The notes under the pieces are model-generated. The model searched no databases. It was not told the origin of the DNA and saw only the letters and a program-made list of their open reading frames with translations. 64,000 bases of DNA from Litorimonas taeanensis (GTDB lineage: Bacteria > Pseudomonadota > Alphaproteobacteria > Caulobacterales > Maricaulaceae). Positions 8,575 through 62,932 of the stretch are shown here, piece after piece. Position 1 is the stretch's first letter. The number at the start of each line of letters is the position of its first letter. The position numbers and the translations under genes were made by a program. The stretch spans positions 895,597 to 959,596 of the forward strand of contig NZ_RBII01000002.1 in assembly GCF_003634015.1 (NCBI RefSeq). The letters run 5' to 3'.

Positions 8575-8669
8575 ATCCATCCTCGCCTATCACATTGATG
8601 TTAGCTTTGGTTTTCGGCCTTGATGGCACATCCCTTGGGGACTAGCCTAAGCTATAGGAGGAGGCATTT

Positions 8670-46687: not shown

Positions 46688-46944
46688 ATCACGGCTGGCT
46701 CATAAATCCTCCCTAAATGCATTTTTGCAGCTTGGTCATATAATTATGTCTGATGGTTGAAATAGGGAAACCGCCTTCCTACTTGCCGCTGATGTTATTT
46801 ATTTTCCATGTGTCGTTCTTATAGGGTGTGACCAAGATAGAGCATTGATGCAAGTCTGATATGCAAATCCTCATCTGGTTATTTTTCATCCGCTAAGTAA
46901 GGACACATTTGGCGCACACGTGTTTAAAGAATGGTCGGATACTC
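46688..46944 (+). promoter_or_regulatory. Leader region of the RND efflux operon
   Basis: These 257 bases between xseA and the efflux operon contain no gene, strong inverted repeat or terminator that I can support. No TetR or MarR gene adjoins the operon, so its control must come from elsewhere in the genome. Confidence 0.4.
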
Positions 46945-48111
46945 ATGCCTTTTTCCCCTAAGCAGATTTCATTGAAAAAACTACTACCGAGCAGCGCTGC
47001 TGTTCTGTTTTTGGCGGCTTGCGGCACGGAGAGCGTTACCGCCCCGCCGCCCGCGCCAGCGCCTTTGTCGGTGCAGGTTCATACAGTAAAGCTTGAGCCT
47101 ATTGATAATATCGTAAGCTTGTCTGGTCGAGCGCGTGCTTATCGCGAGGCTGAAATTCGTCCAGAAGTCTCTGGTCTTATTGTCGACCGTTTATTCGAAG
47201 AAGGGCAAGAAGTCTCAAGAGGGACAGCGCTTTATAAAATTGATGATGCGCGATATTCAGCCGAAGTTCAAAGCGCCAAAGCTGCATTGGAGCGGTCGAA
47301 ATCGGCGTCTCAACTCGCGGATGAGACCTTGGCAAGGTTTGAACGCTTGGCCAGTATTCGCGCGGTGAGCCAACAAGAATATGAACAAGCTCTTGCAACA
47401 GCAAATCAAGCAAAGGCCGATATTAATATTCAACGGGCTGCGGTTGACCGCACGACAATTGATTATGAGAAAACAGTCATTCGGGCACCTATTAGCGGTC
47501 AAATTGGTCGGTCATCTGTAACAACAGGTGCGCTTGTTACCGCTAATCAGTCACAATCTTTGGCGCGTATTCTACAGCTTGATCCGATTTATGTGGACAT
47601 GGCTATCCCAAGTGTGCGTGTGGTGGACTTTAACAGAAAAATAAAGAACGGCGAAATAGAGCTGGACGATAAAGACACAGTCGAAGTCGGGATCATCATG
47701 GAAGATGGTCAGCCTTATGACTATCCGGGAAAAATTGCCTTTGCTGAGGTTAGTGTGGATGAAAATGCCGGCTCAGTCACATTGCGGACTACCGTGCCAA
47801 ATCCAGACGGAACTCTTTTGCCAGGTATGTATCTTCAAGCAGAGGTTCCAGCCGGTCGATTTGAAGCGGCTGCCACTGTCCCCCAAGAGGCTGTGACAAG
47901 AACGGCCCGCGGCGAGGTTGCTGTGTTCGTTTCAAATGCTGACAATATCGTTGAGCGTAAGAGCATTCAAACTGTCGGTAATTTAGGCAATTCATGGATT
48001 GTTACGTCGGGTCTTAAGACGGGCGATAAAATTATCACATCAAATTTACAGGGAATTAAAGAAGGCATGGCGGTTACGCCAATGACGACATTTAATTCTG
48101 GGGCTCAGTAA
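46945..48111 (+). CDS. RND efflux periplasmic adaptor (membrane fusion protein)
   Basis: This 388-residue AcrA/MexA-type adaptor has a lipoprotein signal ending LAAC (Cys at about residue 26) and a Pro-rich linker. The first half-lipoyl motif is SGRARAYREAEIRPEVSGLIV, the alpha-hairpin is about residues 100-165 (QSAKAALERSKSASQ, QQEYEQALATANQAKADI), and the second lipoyl half is TVIRAPISGQIGRSSVTTGALV. Beta-barrel and membrane-proximal domains follow. The ATG at 46945 is preferred to a TTG at 46909. It is first in a three-gene operon with the RND pump and outer-membrane channel. Confidence 0.93.
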   Translation: MPFSPKQISLKKLLPSSAAVLFLAACGTESVTAPPPAPAPLSVQVHTVKLEPIDNIVSLSGRARAYREAEIRPEVSGLIVDRLFEEGQEVSRGTALYKIDDARYSAEVQSAKAALERSKSASQLADETLARFERLASIRAVSQQEYEQALATANQAKADINIQRAAVDRTTIDYEKTVIRAPISGQIGRSSVTTGALVTANQSQSLARILQLDPIYVDMAIPSVRVVDFNRKIKNGEIELDDKDTVEVGIIMEDGQPYDYPGKIAFAEVSVDENAGSVTLRTTVPNPDGTLLPGMYLQAEVPAGRFEAAATVPQEAVTRTARGEVAVFVSNADNIVERKSIQTVGNLGNSWIVTSGLKTGDKIITSNLQGIKEGMAVTPMTTFNSGAQ

Positions 48112-48114
48112 ATC

Positions 48115-51100
48115 ATGGCGCGTTATTTTATTGATAGACCCGTTTTCGCGTGGGTAATCGCGATTGGTATTATGCTCATGGGCTTGTTGGCTTTTCGGAG
48201 TTTGCCTGTTGCGCAATACCCAGAAATAGCCCCGCCGACTATTACTGTTACGGCAACATATCCTGGCGCTTCGGGTAAAGCGGTTGAAGATTCGGTCACG
48301 CAAGTCATCGAACAACAAATGACAGGTCTGGATGGACTTGATTATATGTCATCGACCTCAAGCTCATCAGGGGTTGGTACGACGACTTTGACGTTTAAAT
48401 CCAATGTTGATGCGGATATCGCACAGGTTCAGGTTCAAAATAAACTCTCTTTGGCGACGCCGCTCTTACCGCAAGATGTGCAGCGTCAGGGTGTGACGGT
48501 GACAAAGGCTGGCGCAGGTTTCCTTATGGTTGTGTCGCTCTATTCTCCAAATGCGCAATATAATCAGTTTGATCTTGGGGATTATATTAAGAGTAACATT
48601 TTGGATACGGTGAACCGAATTCCAGGGGTCGGTAGTTCCCAGTTATTTGGTTCTGGTTACGCCATGCGAATTTGGTTGAACCCCAGTAAATTAGATCAAT
48701 TTGGCCTTATGCCCAGCGATGTCATTGCGGCTATTCAGGCGCAAAACTCTCAAGTTTCCGCTGGGTCACTGGGGGATGCGCCAACATCAAAGGATCAGAA
48801 ATATACAGCCACAGTCACATTGCAGTCTTTGATGCAAACTCCCGAAGAATTCCGCGCACTCGTGCTCCGCACAACAGCGGGGGGGCGTACTTTGACCTTG
48901 GGCGAAGTGGCTGATGTTGAGATTGGCGCTGAACAATATTCATTTGGGGCTACATATAATGGGCACCCTGCGGCTGGCTTTGCAGTGTCTCTTGCATCAG
49001 GAGCTAATGCTCTTGAAACGGCTGAAGCCGTTCGTGAGCTTGTCCATGAATTAGAGAGTTCGCTCCCAGACGGCATGTCGATTGAGGTGCCTTATGATAC
49101 GACCCCCTTTGTGGAAGAGTCTATTCATGAGGTTCAAAAGACATTGGTTGAAGCCGTGATCTTGGTCTTCATTGTTATTTTTGTTTTCTTACAATCCTTA
49201 CGCGCGACCTTCGTACCTATGGTGGCGATCCCCGTGGTATTATTAGGGACGTTGGCCATTATGTCTGTGGCAGGGTTTTCGTTAAATATGTTGACCTTAT
49301 TTGCCATGGTGCTTGCTATTGGTCTTTTGGTTGATGACGCGATTGTTGTCGTTGAAAATGTCGAACGCGTTATGGAAGAAGACGGGCTAGGCCCACGCGA
49401 AGCCGCCAAAAAGTCAATGGATCAGATTTCAGGCGCGCTTGTGGGTATCGTTGTTGTGTTATCAGCGGTTTATATCCCTATGGCCTTCTTCCCCGGTATT
49501 ACGGGCGTTATTTATCGTCAGTTCTCTGTGACGATTGTCTCGGCAATGGTATTGTCAGTGATTGTGGCGATTGTTTTATCACCTGCAATCGCAGCGAATT
49601 TCTTACGGCCCAAAGCCGAAGTAAGAGGCCCTCTCCACAAACCGGGTGATCTTTTCAATAAAGGGTTCGACCGCCTTAGAAACGGATATGAAGGTATCGT
49701 TGCGCGTATTTTGCGCCGCCGCTGGATATTTATGGGCGTTTTTGCCGTGATTACAGTCGTGATGGGATTGGGCTTTCAATCCCTACCCAATGGATTTTTG
49801 CCTGATGAAGACCAAGGCGCTGTTATTACTATGGCGACATTGCCGGGTGATGCCTCAAAAGCGCGAACAGAAGCGACTATGGCGGATGTTGCCAATCATT
49901 ATATGCAAAATGAAGCTGAGAATGTGAAAGGTGTTTTCGCTGTTTCAGGTTTTAGTTTCGCAGGAGCAGGGGCCAATCAGGGGCTATCATTTGCGCCGCT
50001 TAACCCTTGGGATGAACGAACAGATCCAAGTCAGGCTGCGGCGGCAATTGCGATGCGAACGACAATGGCGATGCATAATCACCCAGATGGTTTTATCTTT
50101 GCTTTGACGCCGCCGGCACTTCCTGCCCTTGGTCAGGTGAGTGGGTTTAACCTCTATCTTAAGGATGAAGCGCAATTAGGACGCGAAGCGTTGATGAACG
50201 CACGAAATATGCTGCTTGGACAAGCGGCGCAAAGTTCGCTCCTGGCCAATGTCCGCCCAAATGGGCGTGAGGATGGGCCGCAATATAATCTAGAGATGGA
50301 TTATAAAAAGGCGCAAGCTTTGGGCGTACAAACTAGCGACCTAGCTTCTGTTCTATCCTCTGCAATGGGGTCTAATTACGTAAATGATTTCCTAGATCGT
50401 GGCCGCATTAAACGTGTCATTTTAGGCGGTGAAATGTCAGCGCGGATGCAGCCTGATGATATTTCAAAATGGCGTGTGCGAAATAGCAATGGAGACATGA
50501 TTCCCGTCGATGAATTGCTTAGCGCGGAATGGGGTTTTGGCTCTCCGCAGCTCGAACGATATAACGGTGTTCCGGCCTTTAACATTCAAGGTGCGGCTGC
50601 CACTGGGTTGAGTTCAGGTGTTGCTATGGATGAAATGGAGCGCCTGATAAATGCGCTTCCAGAAGGTATAGGTTTTGAGTGGACAGGCGTGAGTGCTGAA
50701 GAACGGCAATCTGGCAACCAAGCCTCAATACTATATGCTTTATCCATTCTCTTTATTTTCCTCTGTTTGGCGGCACTCTATGAAAGTTGGACTGTCCCCG
50801 TTGCTGTATTGCTCGTGGCGCCCTTGGGTGTTGCTGGCGCCGTTGCGGCCGCGCATTTCCGTGGATTATCAAATGATGTGTTCTTCCAAGTGGGGCTTTT
50901 AACGACCGTTGGTCTGGCCGCTAAGAATGCAATTTTGATTGTCGAATTTGCAAAAGATCTTGAAGAAGAAGGTAAAGAATTAATTGCGGCAACCCTAGAG
51001 GCGGTTCGCATGAGATTACGTCCTATCTTGATGACATCTTTGGCGTTTGGATTTGGTGTTTTGCCTTTGGCGCTAGGCACAGGCGCAGGGGCAGGTGCCC

Positions 51101-51279
51101 GTGTGGCAATTGGTACGGCTGTTCTCGGGGGGATGATTTTCTCGACCGCTTTCGGGATTTTCTTTGCTCCGCTATTTTATGTCTTCGTAAGACGTTTAAC
51201 TGGCAAGAAAACCGAGAAGCAAATTGAAGTCGAGCAAAGCGCCGCGTCTCAGCCTAATTTACCTCAACAGGAGGCGTAA
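48115..51279 (+). CDS. RND multidrug efflux pump, HAE-1 family (AcrB-like)
   Basis: This 1054-residue inner-membrane proton antiporter has 12 membrane helices and two large periplasmic loops. It begins MARYFIDRPVFAWVIAIGIM and has the helix-4 proton-relay pair in GLLVDDAIVVVENVERVM (about residues 400-417, adjacent Asp). A Lys in helix 10 is expected in GLAAKNAILIVEFAKDL. The motif QYPEIAPPTITVTATYPGAS is typical of HAE-1 pumps for drugs and hydrophobic compounds rather than heavy metals. It starts three bases after the adaptor stop. Confidence 0.96.
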   Translation: MARYFIDRPVFAWVIAIGIMLMGLLAFRSLPVAQYPEIAPPTITVTATYPGASGKAVEDSVTQVIEQQMTGLDGLDYMSSTSSSSGVGTTTLTFKSNVDADIAQVQVQNKLSLATPLLPQDVQRQGVTVTKAGAGFLMVVSLYSPNAQYNQFDLGDYIKSNILDTVNRIPGVGSSQLFGSGYAMRIWLNPSKLDQFGLMPSDVIAAIQAQNSQVSAGSLGDAPTSKDQKYTATVTLQSLMQTPEEFRALVLRTTAGGRTLTLGEVADVEIGAEQYSFGATYNGHPAAGFAVSLASGANALETAEAVRELVHELESSLPDGMSIEVPYDTTPFVEESIHEVQKTLVEAVILVFIVIFVFLQSLRATFVPMVAIPVVLLGTLAIMSVAGFSLNMLTLFAMVLAIGLLVDDAIVVVENVERVMEEDGLGPREAAKKSMDQISGALVGIVVVLSAVYIPMAFFPGITGVIYRQFSVTIVSAMVLSVIVAIVLSPAIAANFLRPKAEVRGPLHKPGDLFNKGFDRLRNGYEGIVARILRRRWIFMGVFAVITVVMGLGFQSLPNGFLPDEDQGAVITMATLPGDASKARTEATMADVANHYMQNEAENVKGVFAVSGFSFAGAGANQGLSFAPLNPWDERTDPSQAAAAIAMRTTMAMHNHPDGFIFALTPPALPALGQVSGFNLYLKDEAQLGREALMNARNMLLGQAAQSSLLANVRPNGREDGPQYNLEMDYKKAQALGVQTSDLASVLSSAMGSNYVNDFLDRGRIKRVILGGEMSARMQPDDISKWRVRNSNGDMIPVDELLSAEWGFGSPQLERYNGVPAFNIQGAAATGLSSGVAMDEMERLINALPEGIGFEWTGVSAEERQSGNQASILYALSILFIFLCLAALYESWTVPVAVLLVAPLGVAGAVAAAHFRGLSNDVFFQVGLLTTVGLAAKNAILIVEFAKDLEEEGKELIAATLEAVRMRLRPILMTSLAFGFGVLPLALGTGAGAGARVAIGTAVLGGMIFSTAFGIFFAPLFYVFVRRLTGKKTEKQIEVEQSAASQPNLPQQEA

Positions 51280-51282
51280 GAA

Positions 51283-52677
51283 ATGACGTATAAACATGTA
51301 ATTTTGACGCTTTTATCTGGTAGTGTTTTGACGGGGTGCGCGAGTCTCTCTGAAGTGTATTCGCCGCCTAGCTCTAGCGTAGAGACGGCTCTGAGAATGA
51401 CAGATGATTCCGTTCCCTCAAAGCCTCTATATTGGGATGAACTGGTCACTTCGCCTGAGCTTAAGGCCTTGATTGAAATGGGGCTCGATGAAAATAGAGA
51501 TCTTAAAGTCTCGGCGGCTAATGTCCAATTAGCGCGCGCGCAATTAAGGCTCTCACAGGCTGACCGCTTGCCCACATTATCCGTAACAGGGAGCGCAACA
51601 GAAGGCGGCAGAATTGCCGGCAATAGAACAACAGCTTCGGCTTTCTTTTCTGATAGTACAGTCGCTCAAATTGGGGCTTCATCCTATGAGCTTGATTTCT
51701 TTGGGCGGCTTGAAAGCCGAGAAGAATCCGCTTTCCAGCAATATTTAGCTACAGAAGCTGGTGAACGCAGCGTGCGTATTTCGGTCGTTGCAGCCATTAT
51801 GGACGCATGGATGCAGTTGGGCGCGGATCAGGCCTTACTTAATCTTGCCCAAGAAACAGCAAGCAATCAAAAGGTTAGTTTAGAGCTTACCCAAGGTCTG
51901 TTGGATGCCGGCGCCGCGAATGAGCTGGATGTGCGCCGTGCCTCCGCCTCTATGCAATCTGCCTTGGCAGATGTTGCGCAATCACAAGCGCTGATCATGC
52001 AAGACAAAAACACGCTTGAGCTATTGGTGGGTAGTAAAATTCCAGAATCAATTTTTACCGCGGTGCAGCTTACGCCCTATCCTGTAAAAACTGATATTCC
52101 TGTTGAATTGTCTTCCTCAGTTTTACTTAACCGCCCTGATATTATTGCGGCTGAGGCCTCTTTGAAGGCCGCGAGTGCTGATATCATTGCAGCGCGGGCC
52201 GCATATTTTCCAACGATTTCTTTGACGGGGTCTGTCGGAGAGGCAAGCTTAGGGTTGAAGAATTTGTTTGATGGTGGCGGCGCTTTGGGATGGAGTTTTG
52301 GCCCAACTCTTTCATTGCCTATATTTGACGGTGGCCGCCGTGATGCGAATTTAGAGGGGGCAAAGGCCTCTGAAGCACTGGCCTTGGCGCAATATGAACA
52401 AGCCATCCAAACGGCCTTTAAAGAAGCCTCTGACGCCTTGGCCGTTGCGAGTACGATTGATGCACGCCTTTCCGCTTTAGACCAATTTACCGAAGATACA
52501 GGGGTGACCCTCTATTTGTCTCGAGAACGGTTTAAAGAAGGTCTTGATGATTATTTATCTGTCTTGGATGCGCAGCGCCAAGATTTCACTGGGCGTCAAC
52601 AACATATACTTGTTCAGCTTCTGAAAGGGCAAAATACAACGGCCCTTTATAGAGCGCTGGGCAGTTGGTCTGAATAA
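51283..52677 (+). CDS. RND efflux outer-membrane channel (OprM/NodT family lipoprotein)
   Basis: This 464-residue TolC-superfamily protein has a lipobox LTGC (Cys at about residue 19) followed by SLSEVYSPP. Two OEP repeats follow, with long helices such as LSVSAANVQLARAQLRLSQADRLP-type segments (here RDLKVSAANVQLARAQL), SYELDFFGRLESREESAF and LLNRPDIIAAEASLKAASADI. The C-terminal half has SLPIFDGGRRDANLEGAKASE. It completes a full tripartite pump, three bases after the RND gene. Confidence 0.94.
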   Translation: MTYKHVILTLLSGSVLTGCASLSEVYSPPSSSVETALRMTDDSVPSKPLYWDELVTSPELKALIEMGLDENRDLKVSAANVQLARAQLRLSQADRLPTLSVTGSATEGGRIAGNRTTASAFFSDSTVAQIGASSYELDFFGRLESREESAFQQYLATEAGERSVRISVVAAIMDAWMQLGADQALLNLAQETASNQKVSLELTQGLLDAGAANELDVRRASASMQSALADVAQSQALIMQDKNTLELLVGSKIPESIFTAVQLTPYPVKTDIPVELSSSVLLNRPDIIAAEASLKAASADIIAARAAYFPTISLTGSVGEASLGLKNLFDGGGALGWSFGPTLSLPIFDGGRRDANLEGAKASEALALAQYEQAIQTAFKEASDALAVASTIDARLSALDQFTEDTGVTLYLSRERFKEGLDDYLSVLDAQRQDFTGRQQHILVQLLKGQNTTALYRALGSWSE

Positions 52678-52940: not shown

Positions 52941-53804
52941 CTATTTAATTTGAAAACGCCCTTCCGTTCTTATGTAAACCAAGCAAGCCGTTTCGATATT
53001 ACAGCTAAGGGTGTGGGGTATGTTCTCTGCTGATGCGAAATAGCTTCCTGCATTGATGTCGGTGGGCGCTGTAACTCCAGCGACAGTATGGGTAACATTA
53101 CCCTGTATGATGACGGACTTAAGCTCTCCGCCATGTGTAGAAAGATTAGCTTGGTAGCCGGGTGGCAACCTAATCATTGAGCCGCTTAAGGCGCTCTCAG
53201 ATAAATTACCCCAGAGCAAAGTAACCTCAGGCCCGTCCTCTATATCATCAACCTTAATCCAATTCATTTGGTCTGCGTTCATCCAAACCATGTTTGAACT
53301 TTCTAGATTAAGAGGATGCTCGCCACTTTCGAATGCGAGCTCACCGGGCTGTACCAAATAAGGCCCTTCTAATATTTCAAGGAATCCTGTCCCGCCTACA
53401 CCAGACTGCGCAGAGGTTATATGCACTTCGCCCGCGGGCTGTGTCCAAAATGTTCCCGGCCCCATCCACATATTTGCGGCGTCAGGGTCATCATTGTGGA
53501 TTGCCCCGCTGATAACTATAGCCCGATAGGTGATGTTGTGAATATGGGGCGGGGACGAAAACCCGTCAGAGAATTTCAAAACCATACCAGACGCGACATC
53601 TTTGGAGATATCTCCCCAAAGCACGCCCGCCTGCGGACTGGCATCACCTCTGGCTGGATTGAGCGGTTGATATGAGACATCCTCTGCCGTCATAAGGGTG
53701 ATGCTGTCTTTTTGTGTCTGGGTATAAGTTGTGGGTTCTGCCCCAGAGCAAGCGCCAATGACGACAAAGAAGGGCGCAATAATTCGTGATTTTAAATTTT
53801 TCAT
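52941..53804 (-). CDS. DUF4437 bicupin lipoprotein
   Basis: This 287-residue protein has a lipoprotein signal (IGAC, Cys at about residue 19) and two cupin domains of about 110 residues each. The first has [22 protein letters not shown] and [13 protein letters not shown], giving a His-x-His plus His metal site. The second has [20 protein letters not shown] and [11 protein letters not shown]. The double-cupin pattern matches DUF4437 (PF14499). It is the last gene of the LysR-MDR-DUF4437 minus-strand group, 17 bases after the MDR gene, with a terminator behind it. The function is unknown; metal-dependent small-molecule chemistry at the envelope is plausible. Confidence 0.78.
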
Positions 53805-53821
53805 TTTTTGCTCCTCTGCTT

Positions 53822-54811
53822 TTAAATTGATACGACAACTTTGCCAATGGCTTGGCCACTCGTAAGGCGATCATAGGCTGCGTTAATATCTTCTAATGTA
53901 AACGCCTCATCATCAAGCCGCGGCGTTAGCGCGCCCGCATCAATAATTTTGGCAAGTTCAGCAAGAATCTGGCCATGGACTTCGCGCTCATGATTGTGAA
54001 GCATCGGAATAAGCATAAATATAACATGAAGCGAGAGACCTTTAAAATGGGCAGGACTTAGGTCTAGCTCGAGCAAAGACACTGTCGTTGCAATATGGGC
54101 ATTGAGCGCTGCGGCTTCGAATGAGTTTGTAAGGTTTTGTCCGCCCACAGAGTCAAAAATAATATCAAACCCAGCACCATCGGTATATTGGGCCACATAA
54201 TCACTCACGGCTTGACGTTTAAAGTCGATAGCTGTTGCGCCGTAACTTTCAATGAGTTCCATGCGTTTGTCGCCTGTATCCGTTGCGAAGACTTCAGCGC
54301 CCATATGTTTGGCGAGTTGTACGGCAAGGTGGCCGACGCCGCCAGAGCCGCCTTGAACCAAGATTTTTTGTCCAGACCTTGCGCCCGCGCGTTTTAAGCC
54401 TTCATAAGCGGTAATGCCTACCAGTGGAATTGCGGCGGCTTCGCGCATAGAAAGTGTTTTCGGTTTATGCGCAATGAGCTTTGCATCAGCGTTAATTAGC
54501 TCTGTTAATGTGCCCTGCAAACCAATGAGGCCGCCTGCGCAGCCATAGACTTCATCACCAGGAGCAAAGTTTGTCACGCCTTCGCCAAAAGCCTCGACCG
54601 TACCAGCAAAGTCCATGCCGAGAATGGCCGGCAGGTCAGGCGAAAGCGGTAATTGTTCCTGACCCATCTGGCGGATCATCGTATCTACTGTATTCACGCT
54701 ACTCGCAGCGATGCGGACTAAGACGTGACCATTGGTAACTGTGGGTTCGTCAATATCAGCCAGTTCGAACTTTGCAGTCTCACCATATGATTTTAGGGAC
54801 ATTGCTTTCAT
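53822..54811 (-). CDS. NADPH-dependent MDR oxidoreductase (quinone oxidoreductase/zeta-crystallin-like)
   Basis: This 329-residue zinc-free medium-chain reductase has an N-terminal GroES-like domain with [19 protein letters not shown] and [19 protein letters not shown]. Its Rossmann domain has [31 protein letters not shown] (GxGxxG at about residues 152-160). No structural or catalytic zinc cysteines are seen. The closest relatives reduce quinones, enones or similar alkenes with NADPH. It is on the same strand as the LysR gene upstream and 17 bases before DUF4437. It may supply the reductive step of the putative pathway here. Confidence 0.88.
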
Positions 54812-54915
54812 GGGGTAACCTCAATTATTGTTTGTGTTGAGGTTAATTAGATTGTGCTCCTTTTAATGATAAGCGAGCTAAAAGGATAATCAGTTTTTAG
54901 AATTTCTATATAAAA

Positions 54916-55818
54916 CTATTGTGTCCAGACGGGCGGTGTTCCGATTTTCTCTATAAGAAAATCTATCATCACTCTTACTTTGGCCGTCAGAACATTTGAT
55001 TTTGGATAGACGAGCCAAATGGCCGAGCCATCATCGACTCTATATTCAGGTAAGACTCTGAGGAGTGAACCCTTTCGCAATTCCTGATGGATACTCCACA
55101 TGGAACTCATAGAGATGCCGACCCCTGCCAAGGTGGCAAGGCGTGTGCTTGCCCCGTCATCACATTGCACGCGGGTTTTGGCTTGGCTTGGTGGAAATTG
55201 GTGAACTTCACCTTTCGGACTTGTCAGATCGCGCTTTAACCCGCCAAAAACGACAAGGCGGTGATGGGCAAGGTCTTCTGGTCTTTGTGGCGTTCCATGT
55301 TCTGCTAGATAATCAGGTGAGGCACATAGCACACGTTTATCATCTGCGAGTTTTCGTCCCATCATTGCGCTATCTTCAAGGGCAAAGTTACGCAAAGCGA
55401 GGTCATACCCTCCTTCAATCAATTTGGCTTGGGTATCTGAGAACCGCAAATCAAGGCTTATCTCTGGGTAACGGGTTAAAAATTCTGGTAATATAGGGGC
55501 GACATAAAGCTGGGCGAAAGTACTGGAGCAGGCAAAGCGGAGCGTTCCCGATACTTCGGGATTTCCTTTGCCAAGGGCGACGAGCCCTGCCTCTTCTTGT
55601 GCAATTATTTCTTTGGCAAAAGGCAGGAATTCTGCGCCTTCCAATGACAAAGAGACTTTCCGTGTTGAACGGTGCAAAAGATCGGCGCCAAGCTGATTTT
55701 CTAATTTAGCGAGGCGCGCGCCGGCGACAGCTGGCGCCAGACCTAATTGTCGGCCAGCTGCGCTGATATTCAACATTTCAGCGGCCATAACAAATAATCT
55801 AAGGGCTTCCGTATCCAT
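54916..55818 (-). CDS. LysR-family transcriptional regulator
   Basis: This 300-residue LTTR has an N-terminal winged HTH (MDTEALRLFVMAAEMLNISA, then LGLAPAVAGARLAKLENQLGADLLHRSTRKVSL) and a periplasmic-binding-like effector domain (SGTLRFACSSTFAQLYVAPILP, then DLALRNFALEDSAMMGRKLADDKRVLCAS). The ATG at 55818 is preferred to a TTG 12 codons earlier. It is divergent from the four-gene oxygenase operon and upstream of the MDR/DUF4437 genes, so it is the obvious regulator of both arms. The ligand is unknown. Confidence 0.92.
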   Translation of the reverse strand: MDTEALRLFVMAAEMLNISAAGRQLGLAPAVAGARLAKLENQLGADLLHRSTRKVSLSLEGAEFLPFAKEIIAQEEAGLVALGKGNPEVSGTLRFACSSTFAQLYVAPILPEFLTRYPEISLDLRFSDTQAKLIEGGYDLALRNFALEDSAMMGRKLADDKRVLCASPDYLAEHGTPQRPEDLAHHRLVVFGGLKRDLTSPKGEVHQFPPSQAKTRVQCDDGASTRLATLAGVGISMSSMWSIHQELRKGSLLRVLPEYRVDDGSAIWLVYPKSNVLTAKVRVMIDFLIEKIGTPPVWTQ

Positions 55819-55874
55819 AGCTTTATTATATCCAAAAACTAAAAACTGTTTCAAAATATAGCGCGTTTATTTTC

Positions 55875-55891
55875 ATAATTCAATAAATTAT
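55875..55891. promoter_or_regulatory. Candidate LysR operator in the divergent promoter
   Basis: ATAATT (55875-55880) and AATTAT (55886-55891) are inverted arms around a 5-base centre, in the 125-base gap between the LysR start and the oxygenase operon. Size and place suit an LTTR recognition site; AT-rich sequence makes chance repeats common. Confidence 0.35.
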
Positions 55892-55943
55892 CTCTAAATC
55901 AACAAAACGGCCATGACGGCTTAAATTGAATTGGAGTTGGAAA

Positions 55944-56726
55944 ATGCAAACCAAAGCCCGTGTAAATTACCACGTCAAAAAGAATATTCCGCAGGCTTTT
56001 GTCCTAGATGGAGATGGCATGTCAGGTCAGCTGATTGCGCCTGAGCTTGCATCGACTGAAGTGCAAGTCGATGATTTGCGCTCAAGTCATAAACCTCTAA
56101 ATTTCAATGATGATGGCGTATCATTTGTAACATCTCCTACCAAGGTGTCTCGCTTTAGTGAGGGTGAAAACTGGCGTGAGCCATATGAGGCAGAGCTCAT
56201 CAATCTTTTGAAGCAGACCATAGGCGCAAAAGAGGTGATAGTTTTTGACCATACTGTTCGTGTCGATGAGCCAGAAGCGACGCGGCGCCCCGCGCGTAAT
56301 GTTCATAATGATTTCACCCATGCCAGCGCAGAGCAGCGATTAGATGAGCTCTTGGGGGAAGCCCGTGCTGAAGACTTCCGTAAAGGTAAATTCGGATTTG
56401 TGAATGTGTGGCGGCCCATTGAGACTGTCGTTAAATCTTCCCCTCTTGGATTCATTAAACCCGCTTCTATGCAGGCAGGAGATTGGATGGACATTAATGT
56501 CGTTTACCCCGATCGTGTGGGCCAAGTGCTTGGTGTTGCAGCCAATGATAGACATGAGTGGTTCTATCAATCTGAGATGACACCCGAAGAAGCCATAATC
56601 TTTAACATCTACGATAATCAAGATCGTCCTCACATCGCGCATAGCGCCCTCGATATTTTGAGTGAGAGCGACGTTTCCACACCGCGTAAAAGCATCGAGA
56701 GCCGTTCTCTTGTGCGATACGAGTAA
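55944..56726 (+). CDS. CmcJ/AsaB-family (GA4-desaturase-like) oxygenase
   Basis: This 260-residue protein resembles the CmcJ/AsaB hydroxylase-desaturase family, known from cephamycin (CmcJ) and fungal (AsaB) natural-product clusters. Family marks are RRPARNVHNDFTHASAEQR with the likely metal pair His121/Asp123, GFVNVWRPIETVVKSSPLGF, NDRHEWFYQSEMTPEEAIIF and RPHIAHSAL with distal His233. This is the H-x-D...H facial triad of Fe(II)/2-oxoglutarate enzymes. The ATG at 55944 follows GGAG with good spacing. It is first in an operon with a second oxygenase, an SDR and a crotonase. The substrate is unknown. Confidence 0.8.
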   Translation: MQTKARVNYHVKKNIPQAFVLDGDGMSGQLIAPELASTEVQVDDLRSSHKPLNFNDDGVSFVTSPTKVSRFSEGENWREPYEAELINLLKQTIGAKEVIVFDHTVRVDEPEATRRPARNVHNDFTHASAEQRLDELLGEARAEDFRKGKFGFVNVWRPIETVVKSSPLGFIKPASMQAGDWMDINVVYPDRVGQVLGVAANDRHEWFYQSEMTPEEAIIFNIYDNQDRPHIAHSALDILSESDVSTPRKSIESRSLVRYE

Positions 56727-56747
56727 TTCCTGAAAGGAATGAAAACC

Positions 56748-57662
56748 ATGTCGACAACTTTATTGACACAAGCCCGCACAGTTTCCCGTCCAACGCGGCA
56801 AGCCATGTTGCAACGTGACCCTAGCGTTCATGAATTTTGGCATGAAAACGCAAAAATTTTCGAGGCAGCCTGGGCAGAGTGGGAGGAGAAAGAAGGGAAC
56901 AAGCAATTCGTTTTGGATGCCTCTTTGTATGCGCCCGCGCTTCGGCGCGCGATTGAGCAAAGCTGGAAAAACCCAAATAAAGAAATCGCCGTCAAAGACC
57001 TATGGACAGAAGTGTTTCCAAATGTGTTTGAAGCGCAATTCTTTGACCCAGAAAAACTCCATATTTTAAGAGCTTATCTCGACAAAGTATTTGAAGCCGA
57101 TATTCCCCTACGACCTCCTTATGGCATTGTCCTTAATCGAAGAGGCGCGATGCTTGACCCAAGATCCGAAGGTTATCTGGCGACTCCAACTTTTCAAACA
57201 TTCTATCATGAATTGATCAACCAATATATGCGGCCCGTCTCTCGGTTATTACTCCCGGATACCTATGGGTATGATAGTCAAAGTTTTGGTTTTTCAATTG
57301 CCTGGCAAGCAGGAAAAGATACGACCTTGCGACCACATACCGATGCATCAAGCGTGACGCTCAATATTAATTTGAACCTACCAGAAGAATCCTTTGGAGG
57401 GTCCGCTGTACGATTTATTGATCCGGTAAACCGAAAAGTAGAGAGCCTGAGCTTTAAACCAGGGACGGCTTTAATCCACCATGGCAATGTCGCGCACGCA
57501 TCGGAGCCTATCACAGAGGGAGAGCGGCATAATTTCATTTTATGGCTTTACGGGGAAGGGGGACAGACGCCTTATCCGCACGGACCAGCCTCGATGCCCA
57601 TCAGCGCGAAGGAAAGATGGACAATACCCGATAACCGCCCAGATGGTTTTGCGCCCTTTTAA
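56748..57662 (+). CDS. 2-Oxoglutarate/Fe(II)-dependent dioxygenase family protein
   Basis: This 304-residue protein has its jelly-roll core in the C-terminal half. The triad is His197/Asp199 (LRPHTDASSVTLNINLN) and His250 (HHGNVAHASEPI), with Arg260 (EGERHNFILW) as the 2-oxoglutarate anchor. SFGGSAVRFIDP precedes, as in prolyl-4-hydroxylase-like (P4Hc) enzymes. The N-terminal 180 residues are helical and mostly unfamiliar. The ATG at 56748 lies nine bases after AAAGGA; an ATG three codons earlier sits too close to that site. It lies 21 bases after the CmcJ-like gene. Hydroxylation of a small molecule is likely, but a protein substrate cannot be excluded. Confidence 0.82.
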   Translation: MSTTLLTQARTVSRPTRQAMLQRDPSVHEFWHENAKIFEAAWAEWEEKEGNKQFVLDASLYAPALRRAIEQSWKNPNKEIAVKDLWTEVFPNVFEAQFFDPEKLHILRAYLDKVFEADIPLRPPYGIVLNRRGAMLDPRSEGYLATPTFQTFYHELINQYMRPVSRLLLPDTYGYDSQSFGFSIAWQAGKDTTLRPHTDASSVTLNINLNLPEESFGGSAVRFIDPVNRKVESLSFKPGTALIHHGNVAHASEPITEGERHNFILWLYGEGGQTPYPHGPASMPISAKERWTIPDNRPDGFAPF

Positions 57663-57706
57663 TGACTGAGACAATTGAAACCGATATACGCTTAAGGACA
57701 AATATC

Positions 57707-58504
57707 ATGACAAAGACGATATTAATTACAGGGGCCACTGATGGCATTGGCCTTGAGACTGCCAAGATGATGGCCCCAGAAGGGCATACACTTTTGCTAC
57801 ATGGCCGAAACACAGACAAGCTGAAGTCGGTCAAAAATGTCATCGCCTCCGTGAAAGGAGCCGGCGAAATTAAAACCTACAGAGCGGATCTTTCGGTGCT
57901 GACCGAGGTTGAGGCTTTGGCCCGCAAGGTGAAGGATGATTTTGATACACTTGATATCCTAATTAATAATGCCGGCGTCTTCAAAATGTCGAACCCCGTC
58001 ACTGAGAGTGGATATGATGCGCGCTTCATCGTCAATGTTGTGGCGCCGTATCAATTAACGAAAGCCTTACTCCCTATTTTTAATAAAAATGGACGGGTTG
58101 TGAATTTAGCCTCAGCAGCTCAAGCGCCTGTTAATGTGAAAGGCTTCCTAGATAAGCAGGCCTTCTCTGCTGGTGAGGCTTATGCTCAGAGCAAGCTCGC
58201 ACTGATTATGTGGTCATATGAGATGGCCAAAGCGCTTGGCAAGAATGGGCCCGCCATAATTGCCGTTAATCCTGCATCATTTTTAGGCAGTAAAATGGTC
58301 AAAGAGGCTTATGGTCGTATCGGTCAGGACTTACGCATTGGCGCAGATATATTAACGCGCGCGTCATTAAGCGATGCTTTTGCGGATGCGTCTGGTCGCT
58401 ATTATGACAATGATCGCAAGGCCTTCACAGAGCCACACCCTGATGCTCTAGATTCCGCAAAAAACAAACGCCTCATCAAAGCCATTGAAGGCGTGATTAG
58501 CTAA
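57707..58504 (+). CDS. Short-chain dehydrogenase/reductase
   Basis: This 265-residue SDR has the cofactor motif TKTILITGATDGIGLETAK (TGxxxGxG, residues 2-20), LDILINNAGVF (NNAG) and the catalytic Ser/Tyr/Lys triad. In the triad, Ser lies in VVNLASAAQ, and the Tyr and Lys lie in AYAQSKLALI (YxxxK). It resembles retinol dehydrogenase/WW-oxidoreductase-like SDRs. The ATG at 57707 has AAGGA eight bases upstream; an earlier ATG overlapping the previous stop is possible. It is the third gene of the oxygenase operon, a natural partner to oxidise a hydroxyl made by the upstream oxygenases. Confidence 0.88.
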   Translation: MTKTILITGATDGIGLETAKMMAPEGHTLLLHGRNTDKLKSVKNVIASVKGAGEIKTYRADLSVLTEVEALARKVKDDFDTLDILINNAGVFKMSNPVTESGYDARFIVNVVAPYQLTKALLPIFNKNGRVVNLASAAQAPVNVKGFLDKQAFSAGEAYAQSKLALIMWSYEMAKALGKNGPAIIAVNPASFLGSKMVKEAYGRIGQDLRIGADILTRASLSDAFADASGRYYDNDRKAFTEPHPDALDSAKNKRLIKAIEGVIS

Positions 58505-58613
58505 TCCGTTAATCTCTCTACATCCCTGCATTCCAGATTGATTTTATCCATCTGGTTTAACCCCGCGCTTTCGAGCGTGCTCTCTCACTGTGTCCAAAAC
58601 AAAGGAAAATAAA

Positions 58614-59459
58614 ATGAAATATGAAGGCTTTACAACATTCGCGGTCGATCAAGTCGACGCCATCATGACGGTGACTTTTGACTTCGGAACTGTCAATCTT
58701 CAAGGGCAGGAAATGCTTGCCGATTTGAACAGCTTAGCCATGCGTCTCGAACGCGACAGACAGACAAAGGTCGTTATCTTTCAATCTGCCAATCCTGAAA
58801 TCTGGGTTTGCCATTATGATACCGAACTCCTTAAGGATATGTCCAATGAAGCGGTCTCTAGAGCGGATGCAAAGTTATTGGACCTGCAAACCATTTGTGA
58901 GCGAATAAGCAAAGTGCCACAGGCCACAATTGCTAAACTCGAAGGATTCGCCAGAGGTGGTGGTCATGAGCTAGCACTTGCGCTCGACATGCGTTTTGCC
59001 GCGCGCGGTAAGTACAAGTTTATGCAAATGGAAGTCGGTATGGGTATCTTGCCGTGCGGCGGCGGAGCCTCACGTATGGCGCGACAAACGGGACTTGGGA
59101 AAGCTCTAGAGATTATCCTTAGTGCACAAGACTATGATGCTGATGATGCCGAACGTCTTGGCACAATTAATAAAGCATTAGAGCCCGATGAAATCGGTGA
59201 CTATGTCGATGCTCTTGCAAAGCGCATCGCGCAATTTCCAGCCGAGTCCATTAATGCCTGTAAGCAGATGGTTTATGAGAGCATAGATAAACCCATTGAA
59301 GAGGCATTAAAAGCCGAAGCCTACTGGTTGTATCAGGCCACAAGCAAGACGCCTGCCCTCAAACGCTTTCGTTTAGCGGATGAACAAAGTCTTGAGCATG
59401 ACATTGAAAACCAGCGTAATTGGGGCAAACTTGTTATGGATGTTCAAGATATCAATTAA
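58614..59459 (+). CDS. Enoyl-CoA hydratase/isomerase (crotonase) family protein
   Basis: This 281-residue crotonase-fold protein has the oxyanion-hole strings VVIFQSANPEIWVCHYDTELL (first) and ATIAKLEGFARGGGHELALALDMRFAA (second, GGGHEL at about residues 113-118). The position of the hydratase Glu in the typical MxEVxxGxxPxGGG segment is seen as MQMEVGMGILPCGGGASR, keeping one Glu. Some residues differ from FadB-type hydratases, so hydrolysis or isomerisation is also possible. It is the last gene of the oxygenase operon, 109 bases after the SDR. A CoA thioester substrate is implied for at least one step. Confidence 0.85.
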   Translation: MKYEGFTTFAVDQVDAIMTVTFDFGTVNLQGQEMLADLNSLAMRLERDRQTKVVIFQSANPEIWVCHYDTELLKDMSNEAVSRADAKLLDLQTICERISKVPQATIAKLEGFARGGGHELALALDMRFAARGKYKFMQMEVGMGILPCGGGASRMARQTGLGKALEIILSAQDYDADDAERLGTINKALEPDEIGDYVDALAKRIAQFPAESINACKQMVYESIDKPIEEALKAEAYWLYQATSKTPALKRFRLADEQSLEHDIENQRNWGKLVMDVQDIN

Positions 59460-59791
59460 TTACGATTGAAATTTAGCAGATTCATGAGCTTGCAAGCAGA
59501 GAGATTGTAATCTTCATGGGCACTGAGTCGGGCATAGGCCTGTGAAGATTACGCAAGTCAAATCACTGCGTAATAAATTTATAAATTAAATCATGGCTTC
59601 GTATATTCATGTGGCATGGTCTCCTTAAATTTAGTGGTGTTCCCTAATGATGACAAAGATGCTATAAGAACTGAGATTGTTTATCTGTTGTGGTGGTCAG
59701 TGGGGCCCGCCAAAGTATACGCACAAGCCCTTTTGAGCTCTGCGAGGCATTTGGCATATTCAATACGGATTGCAATCGGGGGCGATCCATC
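59460..59791. other. Intergenic region with strong hairpin
   Basis: This 332-base gap between the crotonase gene and the PAN protein gene has no credible gene. It holds a palindrome GCTTGCAAGC near 59488-59498 and the 15-bp stem-loop listed separately, and otherwise AT-rich sequence likely to contain the promoter of the downstream gene. Confidence 0.5.
59507..59552. repeat. Long perfect stem-loop
   Basis: GTAATCTTCATGGGC (59507-59521) pairs with GCCTGTGAAGATTAC (59538-59552) over 15 base pairs, including 10 perfect outer pairs and two G-U wobbles, around a 16-base loop. No T-run follows, so it is not a standard intrinsic terminator. It could stabilise mRNA ends, form a small RNA or be the trace of a mobile inverted repeat. 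Confidence 0.6.
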
Positions 59792-62700
59792 ATGCTAAAG
59801 TTTCTATCAAGACGTAAAAAGTTATCACTGAGCACAGCGGGGGTGTCGCTAATGGCGGCAGGCATGGCCTTTGGCTATGCGGGCGAGGACATATTAAGCG
59901 GAGCCCCCTTTCATCATTTCGATATTTCCCTTCGAGCGCTAGCGGGCGATAATGCCATTAAAGGCCGCACTGGTGGTGATACATTTCCGGGAATAGGCTT
60001 TAGTCCAGCAGCCGCAACAGCGATTGGTTGGCACGCAGATTACATTGATAGCTATCTATATAGTCCTATTTGGTGGGCGGAAGGTTTTTCAGATGCGGGT
60101 GGTTTGGCAGACAAGGACAACCGATTAAAAGCCTCATTGGCTCAGTTTCATCACCTAGAACGCTTGCATTTTGATGACCTTTTTACCGTCAGTGGTGTCG
60201 AAGATACTTGGAGACGCTATGGAGGGGGCACATTGGCCGGACTCGAATGGGCGGCTTCGCAAAATGACGTAGCGGCTGCCTATAATATTTTGGGGGTTTC
60301 GGTTCACGCTGTACAGGATTTCTATTCGCATTCGAGTTTTATTTCGACAGAGGCCAATCGAAATAAAACTTGGCAATGTTCAACGCCCTCTCAACGCCGT
60401 AATAATCTCTATACAGGGGCCTATGAGACACCAGAACGGGCGGCGCAGCACCATCATGGGAAGGTGTCTTTAGAGTGTTCTGTCTTCAGGACAGCGCAAT
60501 ATAAGCAGATGGAAGATTTTGCTGATATCGCCTGTAGTGGTGTCTCTCCTTATAATCAGTCAACCTTTTGTATTTCATATAGGCAATGCCCCACGGGGAA
60601 CACAAACCTCGATGTTCAATCCGTTGCGGGAAGAATACCTAGTGCGCTGGTCCTTAATCCAAAAGGCATTGCGCTCGATTCATCATACCTTGCAAAGCCT
60701 GGTGGGATTACGCGTGGACTTTTGAATGATAACGGTCGTTTTATTACGGGGAAATCAAATAATTTTGTTAGTTTAGAACAGTGTGACCTAATCTCTAATT
60801 TTGGCGTGTCCTGTGATGAAGGCGCTGCGCATGCACAGTCTTGTCCTGTTGAGACCACGCGAAGTTGTGCATCAGACCATGAGCGTATCTTTGCAACATC
60901 AAAATTATTAGCCACTGAATCCACAGCGCAATGGGTTAAGTCCATTGATGGATATATGTCCGTTCAACATCCCTCTTTTTGGAACAGAGTTAGATCGGGC
61001 CAAACGAAGGATGTCAGTTTGAAAAGCCGTACCCAGCAATTTGAAGATTTCTCCCAAATGCCTTTTCAGTTTCTTTCGGCGGGGCCTTACCCCGTCAATA
61101 ACCCAAGGCTTGGGACTCACACATTTGAGAAAAGCGCGGATGGTTGGTATTTACGTCTCCGTCTAAAAACGGCTGATAAGCAAGGGGCGGGGACAGACGC
61201 GGATATTATCGCCTCGGTCAAATCCTCTGCTGGGACTCAAGATTTCACTTTAGATTATATGCCCATAGGGTCGAATGCCTCGACATCTTTGGCGCTTACG
61301 TCTGTGCAAAGTGACACTCCAATGGGGCGCGCCCTAGCATATAATGATTTCGAGCGCGGTGATAATGATGTTTATACTATTGGTCCGATTAAGGGGGCGC
61401 CCATATCACTGACATTGAAAAGTAAGGCGGCCACAACGGGCGATGCCGTCGAGGCCGTGTTTAATGATGTCGGCGAAAAAATTAAAAATTTTTTCGACCC
61501 TTCAAAACTTGCCGTAAATTTTGGGTCAATAGAAGATGTCGTGGGTAATGATGTCAAAACTATCAATTTTTCTGAGCTGAGAGGGGCGTCGAATAAAACC
61601 TATACGCTGGTTGGTGATGGAAAAAGTGAAGGCAAATATAGCATATCCGTGAAGATAACGGATAAAGGCACATCTGGATTAGATAATCAGACTAAGGCTG
61701 CTGGCCATAGAAATTTCGAAATTGTGCCCCAATCTCTTAAAGTCATCAGAGAATCTGATGTGGACGGGTTTCTGAGCGACAGTGATGAACCTTTTGCATT
61801 TGGATCATTCACCGCATTCAATGGGAGTTTGACTCAGCAAGAACAATTCGTTCATTTTCCTGTGAAAATCAGGGTGCGGCCACAGCTTAAAGATCAATCT
61901 TTTTCTTATAAAATGGACCCCGTAAATGACGGGATGGATAGCGGTGATGTGAAATCACTGACTTGGCCAACATTGACTGCGACGTTGGCGCCAAACGGAG
62001 CCGTCGTTCTGGCCGCTGCGTTTTTTGAGAGTGACGAAGAAACGGATGCGGATAGAAACCGAAGCTTCAATAATTTTGTTACAGGTGTCGAAAAGGCAGA
62101 GCCTGCGCCTTTTTCAAAAAGCTTATCGACAATTGGCAGCGCAGCTGGCTCTGAATGGGCATTGGCTGAAATTGATGTTTATGGGTTTTATCGTAGTGAT
62201 GTGGTCAAAACCAAATCACTTTATTCGTCGCGCCAAGGCTGGACAATTCCAGGCAATGGCACACGAACTTTTCGGTTAAATACATCCGCCCCACGGACGA
62301 TAGGACGTGTTGATGATATCTTTAAGTGGACAAAGGGTTCTATCAGTACTTTGTCTGGCGGGGCAGAAATTTGCGGAGGGCCACAAAGCGCCCAATTTAG
62401 TCAGAATGAGAACACTGTATCCGATCAATTTTCTCGTACAGAGAATGCAGCCCTGAGCGGTTACAACGACAAAACATTTAACAATTACACAGTTGCTCAG
62501 TGTCAATCCGCCTGTCTGAATGAAAAGAGTTTCTATTGTAAATCTTTTGATTACGGCAAGGAGACAGGTCGTTGTGATTTGAGCAAGAATGACGCTTCTG
62601 GAAAGACCTCTCTAAAAAGAGATTATCCTGGAAACCCTTATGATCATTATAAAAGAGTTTCTAAGGCGTCTCAGGCAGCCATAGCGGAGAAATTCTCTCA

Positions 62701-62932
62701 TACGCGAAATGCTGCTTTAAGCGGATATAATCATAAATCCTTCTCAAATTATACAGTCGCGCAATGTCAAAGCGCATGTGTGAATGAAGACAGTTTTTAT
62801 TGCAAATCTATCGATTACAATAAGAATACGGGACAGTGCGACCTAAGTAAAAATGATGCGTCGGCTGGTCTTAGTTTAAGCACAGACTATCCTGGGAACC
62901 CTTATGACCATTATAAGAGACTATCAAAATAG
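59792..62932 (+). CDS. Secreted HET-C/zinc-phospholipase-like protein with two C-terminal PAN/Apple-like domains
   Basis: This 1046-residue exported protein has a signal peptide at residues 1-30 (basic SRRKKLSLST, then a hydrophobic stretch ending FGYAG). Residues 38-190 resemble the HET-C/zinc-dependent phospholipase C-type helical fold. They are rich in His and Asp: HHFDIS, GWHADYID, HHLERLHFDD and the hallmark SVHAVQDFYSH with His172, Asp176 and His180 as likely metal ligands. Residues 300-870 are beta-rich and of unknown type. Two PAN/Apple-like repeats (from about residues 880 and 968) share CQSAC, FYCKS and CDLSKNDAS with conserved cysteines, suggesting disulfides and binding of protein or sugar. 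The ATG at 59792 follows GGGGGCG. It is monocistronic. A secreted lipase, toxin or adhesin role is possible. Confidence 0.72.
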   Translation: MLKFLSRRKKLSLSTAGVSLMAAGMAFGYAGEDILSGAPFHHFDISLRALAGDNAIKGRTGGDTFPGIGFSPAAATAIGWHADYIDSYLYSPIWWAEGFSDAGGLADKDNRLKASLAQFHHLERLHFDDLFTVSGVEDTWRRYGGGTLAGLEWAASQNDVAAAYNILGVSVHAVQDFYSHSSFISTEANRNKTWQCSTPSQRRNNLYTGAYETPERAAQHHHGKVSLECSVFRTAQYKQMEDFADIACSGVSPYNQSTFCISYRQCPTGNTNLDVQSVAGRIPSALVLNPKGIALDSSYLAKPGGITRGLLNDNGRFITGKSNNFVSLEQCDLISNFGVSCDEGAAHAQSCPVETTRSCASDHERIFATSKLLATESTAQWVKSIDGYMSVQHPSFWNRVRSGQTKDVSLKSRTQQFEDFSQMPFQFLSAGPYPVNNPRLGTHTFEKSADGWYLRLRLKTADKQGAGTDADIIASVKSSAGTQDFTLDYMPIGSNASTSLALTSVQSDTPMGRALAYNDFERGDNDVYTIGPIKGAPISLTLKSKAATTGDAVEAVFNDVGEKIKNFFDPSKLAVNFGSIEDVVGNDVKTINFSELRGASNKTYTLVGDGKSEGKYSISVKITDKGTSGLDNQTKAAGHRNFEIVPQSLKVIRESDVDGFLSDSDEPFAFGSFTAFNGSLTQQEQFVHFPVKIRVRPQLKDQSFSYKMDPVNDGMDSGDVKSLTWPTLTATLAPNGAVVLAAAFFESDEETDADRNRSFNNFVTGVEKAEPAPFSKSLSTIGSAAGSEWALAEIDVYGFYRSDVVKTKSLYSSRQGWTIPGNGTRTFRLNTSAPRTIGRVDDIFKWTKGSISTLSGGAEICGGPQSAQFSQNENTVSDQFSRTENAALSGYNDKTFNNYTVAQCQSACLNEKSFYCKSFDYGKETGRCDLSKNDASGKTSLKRDYPGNPYDHYKRVSKASQAAIAEKFSHTRNAALSGYNHKSFSNYTVAQCQSACVNEDSFYCKSIDYNKNTGQCDLSKNDASAGLSLSTDYPGNPYDHYKRLSK
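62429..62932 (+). repeat. Tandem coding repeat (two PAN/Apple-like units)
   Basis: Two copies start at 62429 and 62693, a period of 264 bases or 88 codons. The encoded units share NAALSGYN, NYTVAQCQSAC, DYPGNPYDHYKR and four cysteines at the same spacing, while the DNA has diverged at many third positions. This is an old but well conserved duplication under protein-level selection. Confidence 0.88.

Follow-up and report, generated by a model that had tools for sequence, protein, structure and literature searches.

LysR-linked genes for two oxygenases, a dehydrogenase and a crotonase in Litorimonas taeanensis and in other marine-leaning bacteria

The oxygenases CmcJ and NvfI have been described from pathways of antibiotics and fungal metabolites (PMC6097109, PMC8292354). 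The CmcJ/NvfI/EfuI family (NCBIfam NF041278) comprises the cephamycin C 7-alpha-hydroxylase CmcJ and the fungal endoperoxidase NvfI. A member is encoded in a 64,000-nucleotide stretch of Litorimonas taeanensis DNA (positions 895,597 to 959,596 of contig NZ_RBII01000002.1; hereafter the window), where a cluster at 52941..59459 also encodes a LysR regulator, a medium-chain dehydrogenase/reductase (MDR), a DUF4437 bicupin, a 2-oxoglutarate (2OG)-Fe(II) oxygenase, a short-chain dehydrogenase/reductase (SDR) and a crotonase. The window protein shares the model match and the metal-site residues of the known enzymes. In contrast to the known systems, however, the cluster has neither the methyltransferase CmcI nor a synthase, and the partners of CmcJ are the SDR, the crotonase, the MDR and a second oxygenase.

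Three other kinds of system were compared with the window set. Plasmid clusters of Caballeronia and Variovorax similarly contain a CmcJ relative (30-34% identity) with a luciferase-like flavin monooxygenase (LLM) and a second dioxygenase of the 2OG kind (TauD), and also solute-binding or ABC genes, whereas no crotonase or SDR is annotated in them and those of Variovorax carry sulfur-related genes. In camphor and alicyclic ketone pathways, a hydroxylase, a dehydrogenase, a luciferase-type Baeyer-Villiger enzyme and a crotonase-fold beta-diketone hydrolase are employed. Their logic of oxygenation, oxidation to a ketone and cleavage is similar, but the oxygenases are different and the window crotonase keeps both Glu residues of the hydratase type. 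LysR-controlled quinone/enone reductase units of the CrgA/YafC kind likewise combine a LysR regulator with a zinc-free MDR, but the window set is far larger, with two oxygenases and a crotonase. Homarine/trigonelline-type catabolism was rejected as a candidate, because the literature on it among the matches listed did not fit the gene set. No paper on the gene set was present among the literature matches listed, in agreement with the original prediction, made from the sequence alone, of an undescribed pathway. As far as we have seen, the family membership of the parts is ordinary, and it is the combination, the regulon and the alternating oxygenase that are undescribed.

Gene content, co-occurrence and the predicted operator

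All seven open reading frames (ORFs) at 52941..59459 were found where they had been predicted, and their positions and family matches confirmed that LysR stands between the MDR and DUF4437 genes on one side and the CmcJ, 2OG, SDR and crotonase genes on the other. The genes do not form the single operon that had been proposed but two divergent units, LysR-MDR-DUF4437 on the minus strand and CmcJ-2OG-SDR-crotonase on the plus strand. The spacing on the plus strand is 12 bp between CmcJ and 2OG, a 1-bp overlap between 2OG and SDR, and 85 bp between SDR and crotonase; on the minus strand, it is 104 bp between LysR and MDR and 17 bp between MDR and DUF4437. Judging from homologues, CmcJ probably begins at ATG 55944, internal to the ORF listed from TTG 55926, and LysR probably begins at ATG 55818, internal to the ORF listed from TTG 55854.

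The CmcJ ORF scored 253.2 bits on the CmcJ/NvfI model (cut-off 80) and is a member of this family, although the Pfam search gave no match for it. Its metal ligands, H127-x-D129...H239 (numbered from the listed ORF start), were at least 95% conserved in a comparison with 83 homologues, and the H-x-D...H residues and a C-terminal R-x-S align with those of solved NvfI (7de2/7emz). This alignment implies that the true ligand order of NvfI is His-Asp-His, contrary to the triad printed as His135-His137-Asp250 in PMC8292354.

An alignment of four CmcJ proteins was used to scan species genomes; it retrieved 115 relatives, and the best 80 of these were retained. The kept relatives belong to Alpha- and Gammaproteobacteria, including Roseobacteraceae, Stappiaceae, Alteromonadaceae, Granulosicoccaceae and other families; the term marine is used here as a reading of the genus names. 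Among 60 close genomes (own included), a CmcJ orthologue was present in the L. taeanensis genome only, and one genome of the same genus contained a 30% CmcJ relative in another context. The 80 relatives, the window and four plasmid loci made up a set of 85 loci, whose ORFs were compared with the window proteins as well as with LLM and MDR from Ruegeria sp. SCSIO 43209. Co-occurrence was counted in the 69 loci (window included) with at least 6 kb on each side, 16 short-flank loci being left out; every locus has CmcJ because the set was built on it, and closely related bacteria, such as the many Ruegeria, count several times. SDR was found in 61 of the 69 loci, LysR in 55, crotonase in 46, LLM in 29, MDR in 27, and the 2OG oxygenase in 26, and one or other of the two latter kinds of oxygenase, LLM or 2OG, in 53. 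In most loci, the LysR relative and CmcJ are divergently oriented. The order of the genes varies, and individual members are also found away from CmcJ. DUF4437 was near CmcJ in five loci, the window included; in L020, L022 and L068 it is within the cluster or adjoins it, and in one of the five it lies 8 kb away beside another LysR. It was therefore rejected as a core member. The genes occur together in dozens of genomes of two classes, contrary to the lack of co-occurrence elsewhere that would have refuted the original prediction.

To obtain an operator model, a Gibbs search with the matrix forced symmetric was applied to 50 dereplicated divergent LysR promoters and yielded a GAATTC-type motif. 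An unconstrained matrix was built from 41 CmcJ promoters (consensus TTCCGAATTCTGAATTCA), and matches of at least 12 bits were regarded as sites. Such sites preceded 51 of 77 CmcJ genes that are first in their unit (training set included). Among other first-in-unit genes, they preceded 7 of 21 2OG, 9 of 42 crotonase and 3 of 17 MDR genes (19/80 when pooled) versus 7 of 541 other genes (p 5e-13 for the pooled genes, kinship being ignored and one L024 site serving two genes). When the threshold was 10 bits, 7 of the 17 MDR genes, which include that of the window, had a site. In total, 104 sites of at least 12 bits were present in 1.45 Mb: 85 upstream of core genes, 14 intragenic, 4 upstream of other genes and 1 elsewhere. 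The core-gene sites comprised 54 located between CmcJ and LysR, 10 assigned to LysR alone, of which some may represent the same gap, and 21 at 2OG, crotonase or MDR; two of the four sites upstream of other genes precede a nitroreductase gene within LLM clusters. The predicted operator is thus conserved across the family, in the gap between the divergent genes as well as before further genes of the set, as in a LysR divergent regulon. Together with the co-occurrence in two classes, this common motif supports the predicted single LysR-linked functional unit.

In the window, the LysR-CmcJ gap aligns with the family operator, reading CTAAAAACTGTTTCA there, and the same 13-mer, with one open position, is found before MDR. 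With at most one mismatch, this pattern occurs in the window at these two places only (0.27 expected; 3 of 100 shuffles reach two); since it was derived from the two sites themselves, only the second occurrence is informative. The exact pattern occurs three times in the 2.78-Mb genome, twice at this cluster; around the third match (C1:694172), one closed ORF of 81 aa was found, closed ORFs alone being listed. With at most one mismatch, the whole genome contains 18 matches versus 10 for the reversed pattern, and therefore no wider regulon can be claimed. The nearest NCBIfam models of the LysR protein are YafC, TtdR and AaeR, the 25 matches listed all being below cut-off. In two Paraglaciecola loci (L017 and L019, at about 7750-8710), a nitronate-monooxygenase family gene, checked for family in L017, is divergent to CmcJ in the place of LysR.

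The crotonase, the reductase and the second oxygenase

The crotonase scored 100.5 bits on PF00378 (cut-off 27) and qualified as a hydratase-type member. Its Glu pair, E127 and E148, was at least 95% conserved in a comparison with 51 homologues and presumably corresponds to the catalytic Glu pair of the rat enzyme; the nearest solved protein is 3gkb, a putative enoyl-CoA hydratase. Genome searches covered 50 genomes, 30 of the 80 kept loci being left out (one of these, L054, lies in a searched genome). The crotonase was detected in 37 of them, in 29 at 83-89% identity (two as fragments) and in 8 at 66-78%, and in 6 of 398 genomes sampled across the phylum, the window's own included; a relative with 73% identity is found on a Persicobacter plasmid. 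In six crotonase pairs with 85-89% amino acid identity, the fourfold silent sites agree in 23-32%, which is near random. By these comparisons, the crotonase is the most constrained protein of the set, and its high identity reflects constraint rather than recency. Recent transfer as the cause of this identity was rejected on the basis of the near-random fourfold sites and the GC content of the cluster, which equals that of its surroundings.

Where it occurs without CmcJ, the crotonase gene adjoins LysR in Vibrio fortis and SDR plus 2OG in one genome, and others are near TetR-like or AraC-like genes (by reading) or SnoaL. On the V. fortis plasmid pLMG21557 (L011, L133), the 2OG oxygenase and crotonase genes lie apart, with LysR adjoining the crotonase; this plasmid was not among the CmcJ matches in the plasmid search.

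The best NCBIfam relatives of the MDR are PIG3 quinone reductases, below cut-off. Because the whole protein contains a single Cys (by reading), it lacks the zinc sites and, judged from its residues, is no zinc enzyme, which argues for enone or quinone reduction.

The second oxygenase of the window stayed under the Pfam gathering scores (PF13640, 22.2 versus 27 bits; PhyH, 18.5 versus 22 bits). On the other hand, a profile of 25 sequences (the window protein and 24 relatives) matched the catalytic domain of the lysyl hydroxylase LH3 (6.6e-12), and H200-x-D202...H253 and R263 (listed-ORF numbering), aligned to LH3, were at least 95% conserved in a comparison with 33 homologues. Because of these catalytic residues and the LH3 match, the protein is still likely to be a member of the 2OG-Fe(II) superfamily, from a diverged subfamily missed by the general Pfam model. 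Intact H-x-D...H sites are accordingly present in both oxygenases, as had been predicted.

That two facial-triad oxygenases are found together is not a general rule, because roughly half of the relatives have as their second oxygenase an unrelated flavin enzyme, the LLM, which passes TIGR03571 in L014. The 69 loci comprised 24 with 2OG only, 27 with LLM only, 2 with both and 16 with neither (Fisher 4e-6, kinship ignored); several of the 16 have a second-oxygenase gene outside the stretch or at another place in the genome. Among the 50 whole genomes, 7 held both, 19 2OG only, 21 LLM only and 3 neither (p 1.7e-5, kinship ignored; LLM matches of at least 58% identity). When LLM matches of 44-49% were added, the numbers were 10, 16, 21 and 3, respectively (p 4.5e-4). 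Strict mutual exclusivity was ruled out by the 2 loci and 7 genomes that hold both. The LLM gene stood between CmcJ and SDR (order CmcJ-LLM-SDR) 32 times out of 34; the remaining two cases have it after CmcJ, and no SDR was seen there. Only in the window and L018 does the 2OG gene occupy this slot; elsewhere it is located after SDR or crotonase, or across LysR or CmcJ. On a quick CmcJ tree (L087, with a split CmcJ ORF, left out; 33 of the 81 inner branches weak), the 2OG/LLM state switches six times; kinship-corrected pairs on this tree gave median p values of 1 and 0.625, with too few pairs and low power. The exchange of 2OG and LLM across relatives is therefore suggestive, a good lead rather than a result.

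Two observations concern this gene in particular. On the Phaeobacter porticola plasmid pP97_b, a short hypothetical gene 3' of the crotonase (L013:10641-10775) contains a stretch 55% identical to 2OG residues 4-53 with an internal stop, and probably represents the remains of a second oxygenase that has been lost. A Ruegeria contig (NZ_JAVAMO010000016.1; L028/L054) carries two CmcJ clusters, one of the 2OG type and one of the LLM type.

Coordinates and flanking genes

The features of the cluster are collected in Table 1.

Table 1. Genes and putative operator sites of the cluster, in window coordinates
Feature	Position	Strand	Basis
DUF4437 bicupin; lipoprotein-like leader (VIGAC, by reading); peripheral member	52941..53804	-	PF14499, 5.9e-77
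MDR reductase of the quinone/enone reductase kind	53822..54811	-	ADH_N/ADH_zinc_N
Putative LysR operator of the MDR-DUF4437 unit, CTAAAAACTGATT	54888..54900	-	13-mer common with the LysR-CmcJ gap
LysR regulator	54916..55818	-	PF03466, PF00126
Putative LysR operator in the divergent gap, CTAAAAACTGTTT	55839..55851	+	Alignment with the conserved operator of relatives
CmcJ/NvfI-family Fe(II)/2OG oxygenase	55944..56726	+	NF041278, 253 bits; triad conserved
2OG-Fe(II) oxygenase, lysyl-hydroxylase-like catalytic domain (likely)	56739..57662	+	Conserved residues, LH3 profile match
SDR dehydrogenase	57662..58504	+	PF00106
Crotonase-family enzyme	58590..59459	+	PF00378

The resistance-nodulation-division (RND) efflux genes at 46909-52677 were rejected as part of the cluster, because the membrane-fusion and outer-membrane proteins have no relatives in the other 84 loci; the pump has two relatives only, at 24-29% identity, across these loci. 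On the 3' side of the cluster, 59690-62932 encodes a protein of 1080 aa that matches PAN_1 in two stretches and VWA7_N weakly; relatives of this protein are absent from the other 84 loci.

Besides the core genes, 15 neighbour families occurred in at least 4 of the 85 loci: scattered ABC ATPases in 23, and the rest in at most 8. They include a sigma-54 activator, E1 and E2 dehydrogenase genes, a relative of lipoate/octanoate transferases, an amidase, a nitroreductase, a GMC oxidoreductase, an aldolase-SDR fusion and transport proteins. Neither a synthase nor an exporter was constant among the neighbour families of the 85 loci.

Possible roles of the gene set

Tentatively, and at just short of an even chance, we regard the set as a LysR regulon with which marine bacteria would degrade a small exogenous compound oxidatively, either in catabolism or in detoxification; the sequence comparisons are suggestive of a fixed crotonase and exchangeable oxygenases in this regulon. 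LysR would sense the compound or an intermediate and bind to a TTCCGAATTCTGAAT-type operator, which in this genome is probably the CTAAAAACTG(A/T)TT variant. It would drive the CmcJ-2OG-SDR-crotonase unit and, from the second site, the MDR-DUF4437 unit. Judging from its family, CmcJ would hydroxylate or desaturate the substrate. The second oxygenase, here the 2OG-Fe(II) enzyme and in relatives the luciferase-like flavin enzyme, would oxidize the product further, the SDR would interconvert alcohol and ketone, and the crotonase would hydrate or cleave an activated alkene or carbonyl. Reduction of an enone or quinone-like by-product would fall to the zinc-free MDR. A lipoate/thiamine pyrophosphate-dependent dehydrogenase complex may, in a few relatives, turn a 2-oxo or diketone product into acyl-CoA: 6 of the 85 loci carry at least three of the five gene families of a 2-oxoacid dehydrogenase set (sigma-54 activator, E1 alpha, E1 beta, E2 and a relative of lipoate/octanoate transferases). 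A more specific version, in which an undescribed marine pathway has a near-invariant crotonase core and the LLM and the LH3-like 2OG enzyme repeatedly replace each other, across cofactors, at one second oxidation step on the same substrate, is possible but on the whole doubtful.

The co-occurrence counts, the operator sites at core genes, the 2-oxoacid dehydrogenase genes and the absence of a constant synthase or exporter speak for this breakdown regulon. Several observations weigh against it. Operator sites of 12 bits were absent before the first-in-unit SDR (0/16), LLM (0/11) and DUF4437 (0/3) genes. The window sites score low on the matrix (8.7 bits before MDR and less than 8.5 bits in the gap), and the best window match, 15.8 bits at 32514, lies inside another ORF; in addition, the motif sampler had picked another place in the window LysR-CmcJ gap, and that place entered the 41-promoter training set. 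No constant CoA ligase or uptake transporter was found among the loci to account for substrate entry and for the activation that a crotonase normally needs, and this crotonase may or may not act on a thioester. Members that occur apart, such as the V. fortis crotonase and 2OG genes, fit a stress regulon as well. In Epibacterium ulvae (L147:6515-16997, genome G461), a detached 2OG gene is located 3.6 kb from an NRPS (nonribosomal peptide synthetase)-like AMP-binding/PP-binding/thioesterase protein, with PALP (PLP-enzyme) and ornithine-cyclodeaminase-family genes on its other side; this region may be a small metabolite cluster. In Granulosicoccus, an AMP-binding protein is encoded about 6 kb from a detached 2OG gene (L146). 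By annotation or reading, no AMP-binding-type gene was present in the other five of the seven detached 2OG loci (L011, L012, L145-L149).

An electrophile/quinone stress regulon, in which LysR senses reactive enones or quinones and the MDR, flavin enzymes, crotonase and oxygenases detoxify separately, with no ordered pathway, appears rather unlikely. It accounts for the zinc-free PIG3-like MDR, the YafC, TtdR and AaeR models nearest to LysR (below cut-off), the crotonases beside LysR, TetR-like, AraC-like or SnoaL genes without CmcJ, the nitroreductase and nitronate monooxygenase neighbours, and, on two Vibrio plasmids, a catalase-peroxidase at a distance of 1.3 kb from 2OG. However, the constrained crotonase and the strict CmcJ-LLM-SDR order suggest a specific intermediate, and 2OG hydroxylases are generally unusual as stress enzymes. 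Chance adjacency of two unrelated units, LysR-MDR-DUF4437 and CmcJ-2OG-SDR-crotonase, is very improbable: the rarity of DUF4437 near CmcJ and the modest matrix score before the window MDR would be consistent with it, but MDR is present in 27 of the 69 loci, in some under the same operator type, and the 13-mer is common to both window promoters.

That the set makes or tailors a small signal or natural product, starting from a common precursor, is improbable, and tailoring is a weaker reading than oxidative breakdown. Such a role is favored by the described pathways of CmcJ and NvfI, the patchy distribution with some relatives borne on plasmids, the E. ulvae neighbourhood and a distant CmcJ relative paired with a P450. 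The last was found among 24 plasmid records with CmcJ relatives, where the contexts of six distant ones were three catabolic-looking, one CmcJ plus P450 and two unclear. In one of these records, a Variovorax plasmid (L168), a family 2A encapsulin, its cysteine desulfurase cargo and sulfur genes are found near the CmcJ relative. Against biosynthesis, none of the 15 neighbour families (most checked with hidden Markov models, the rest by reading) is an NRPS, polyketide synthase (PKS), recurrent synthase, ligase or carrier, so that membership in a natural-product cluster is not indicated, and no synthase, ligase or carrier was seen, by reading, among the non-core genes inside clusters. Moreover, the components are scattered and also occur singly, and 2-oxoacid dehydrogenase genes accompany six of the 85 loci. 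The view that two such oxygenases are typical of natural-product tailoring thus has weak support at best, from one NRPS-like neighbour, against the lack of a recurrent NRPS or PKS, the fluid order and the members found apart. From the original interpretation, the LysR-linked unit, the lack of a synthase or NRPS in the window's cluster and the absence of a description among the literature matches listed are supported, whereas the link to tailoring is weakly supported at best and a pair of facial-triad oxygenases is not the rule among relatives.

This analysis puts a name to a conserved, regulated enzyme set of several marine-leaning families for which the literature matches listed describe no function. 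If an algal or animal metabolite is indeed broken down, the set would fill a gap among the routes of marine carbon turnover. Should the two oxygenases prove interchangeable, they would offer a natural test of iron and flavin chemistry converging on one step. The predicted operator would provide a direct handle on the inducing compound.

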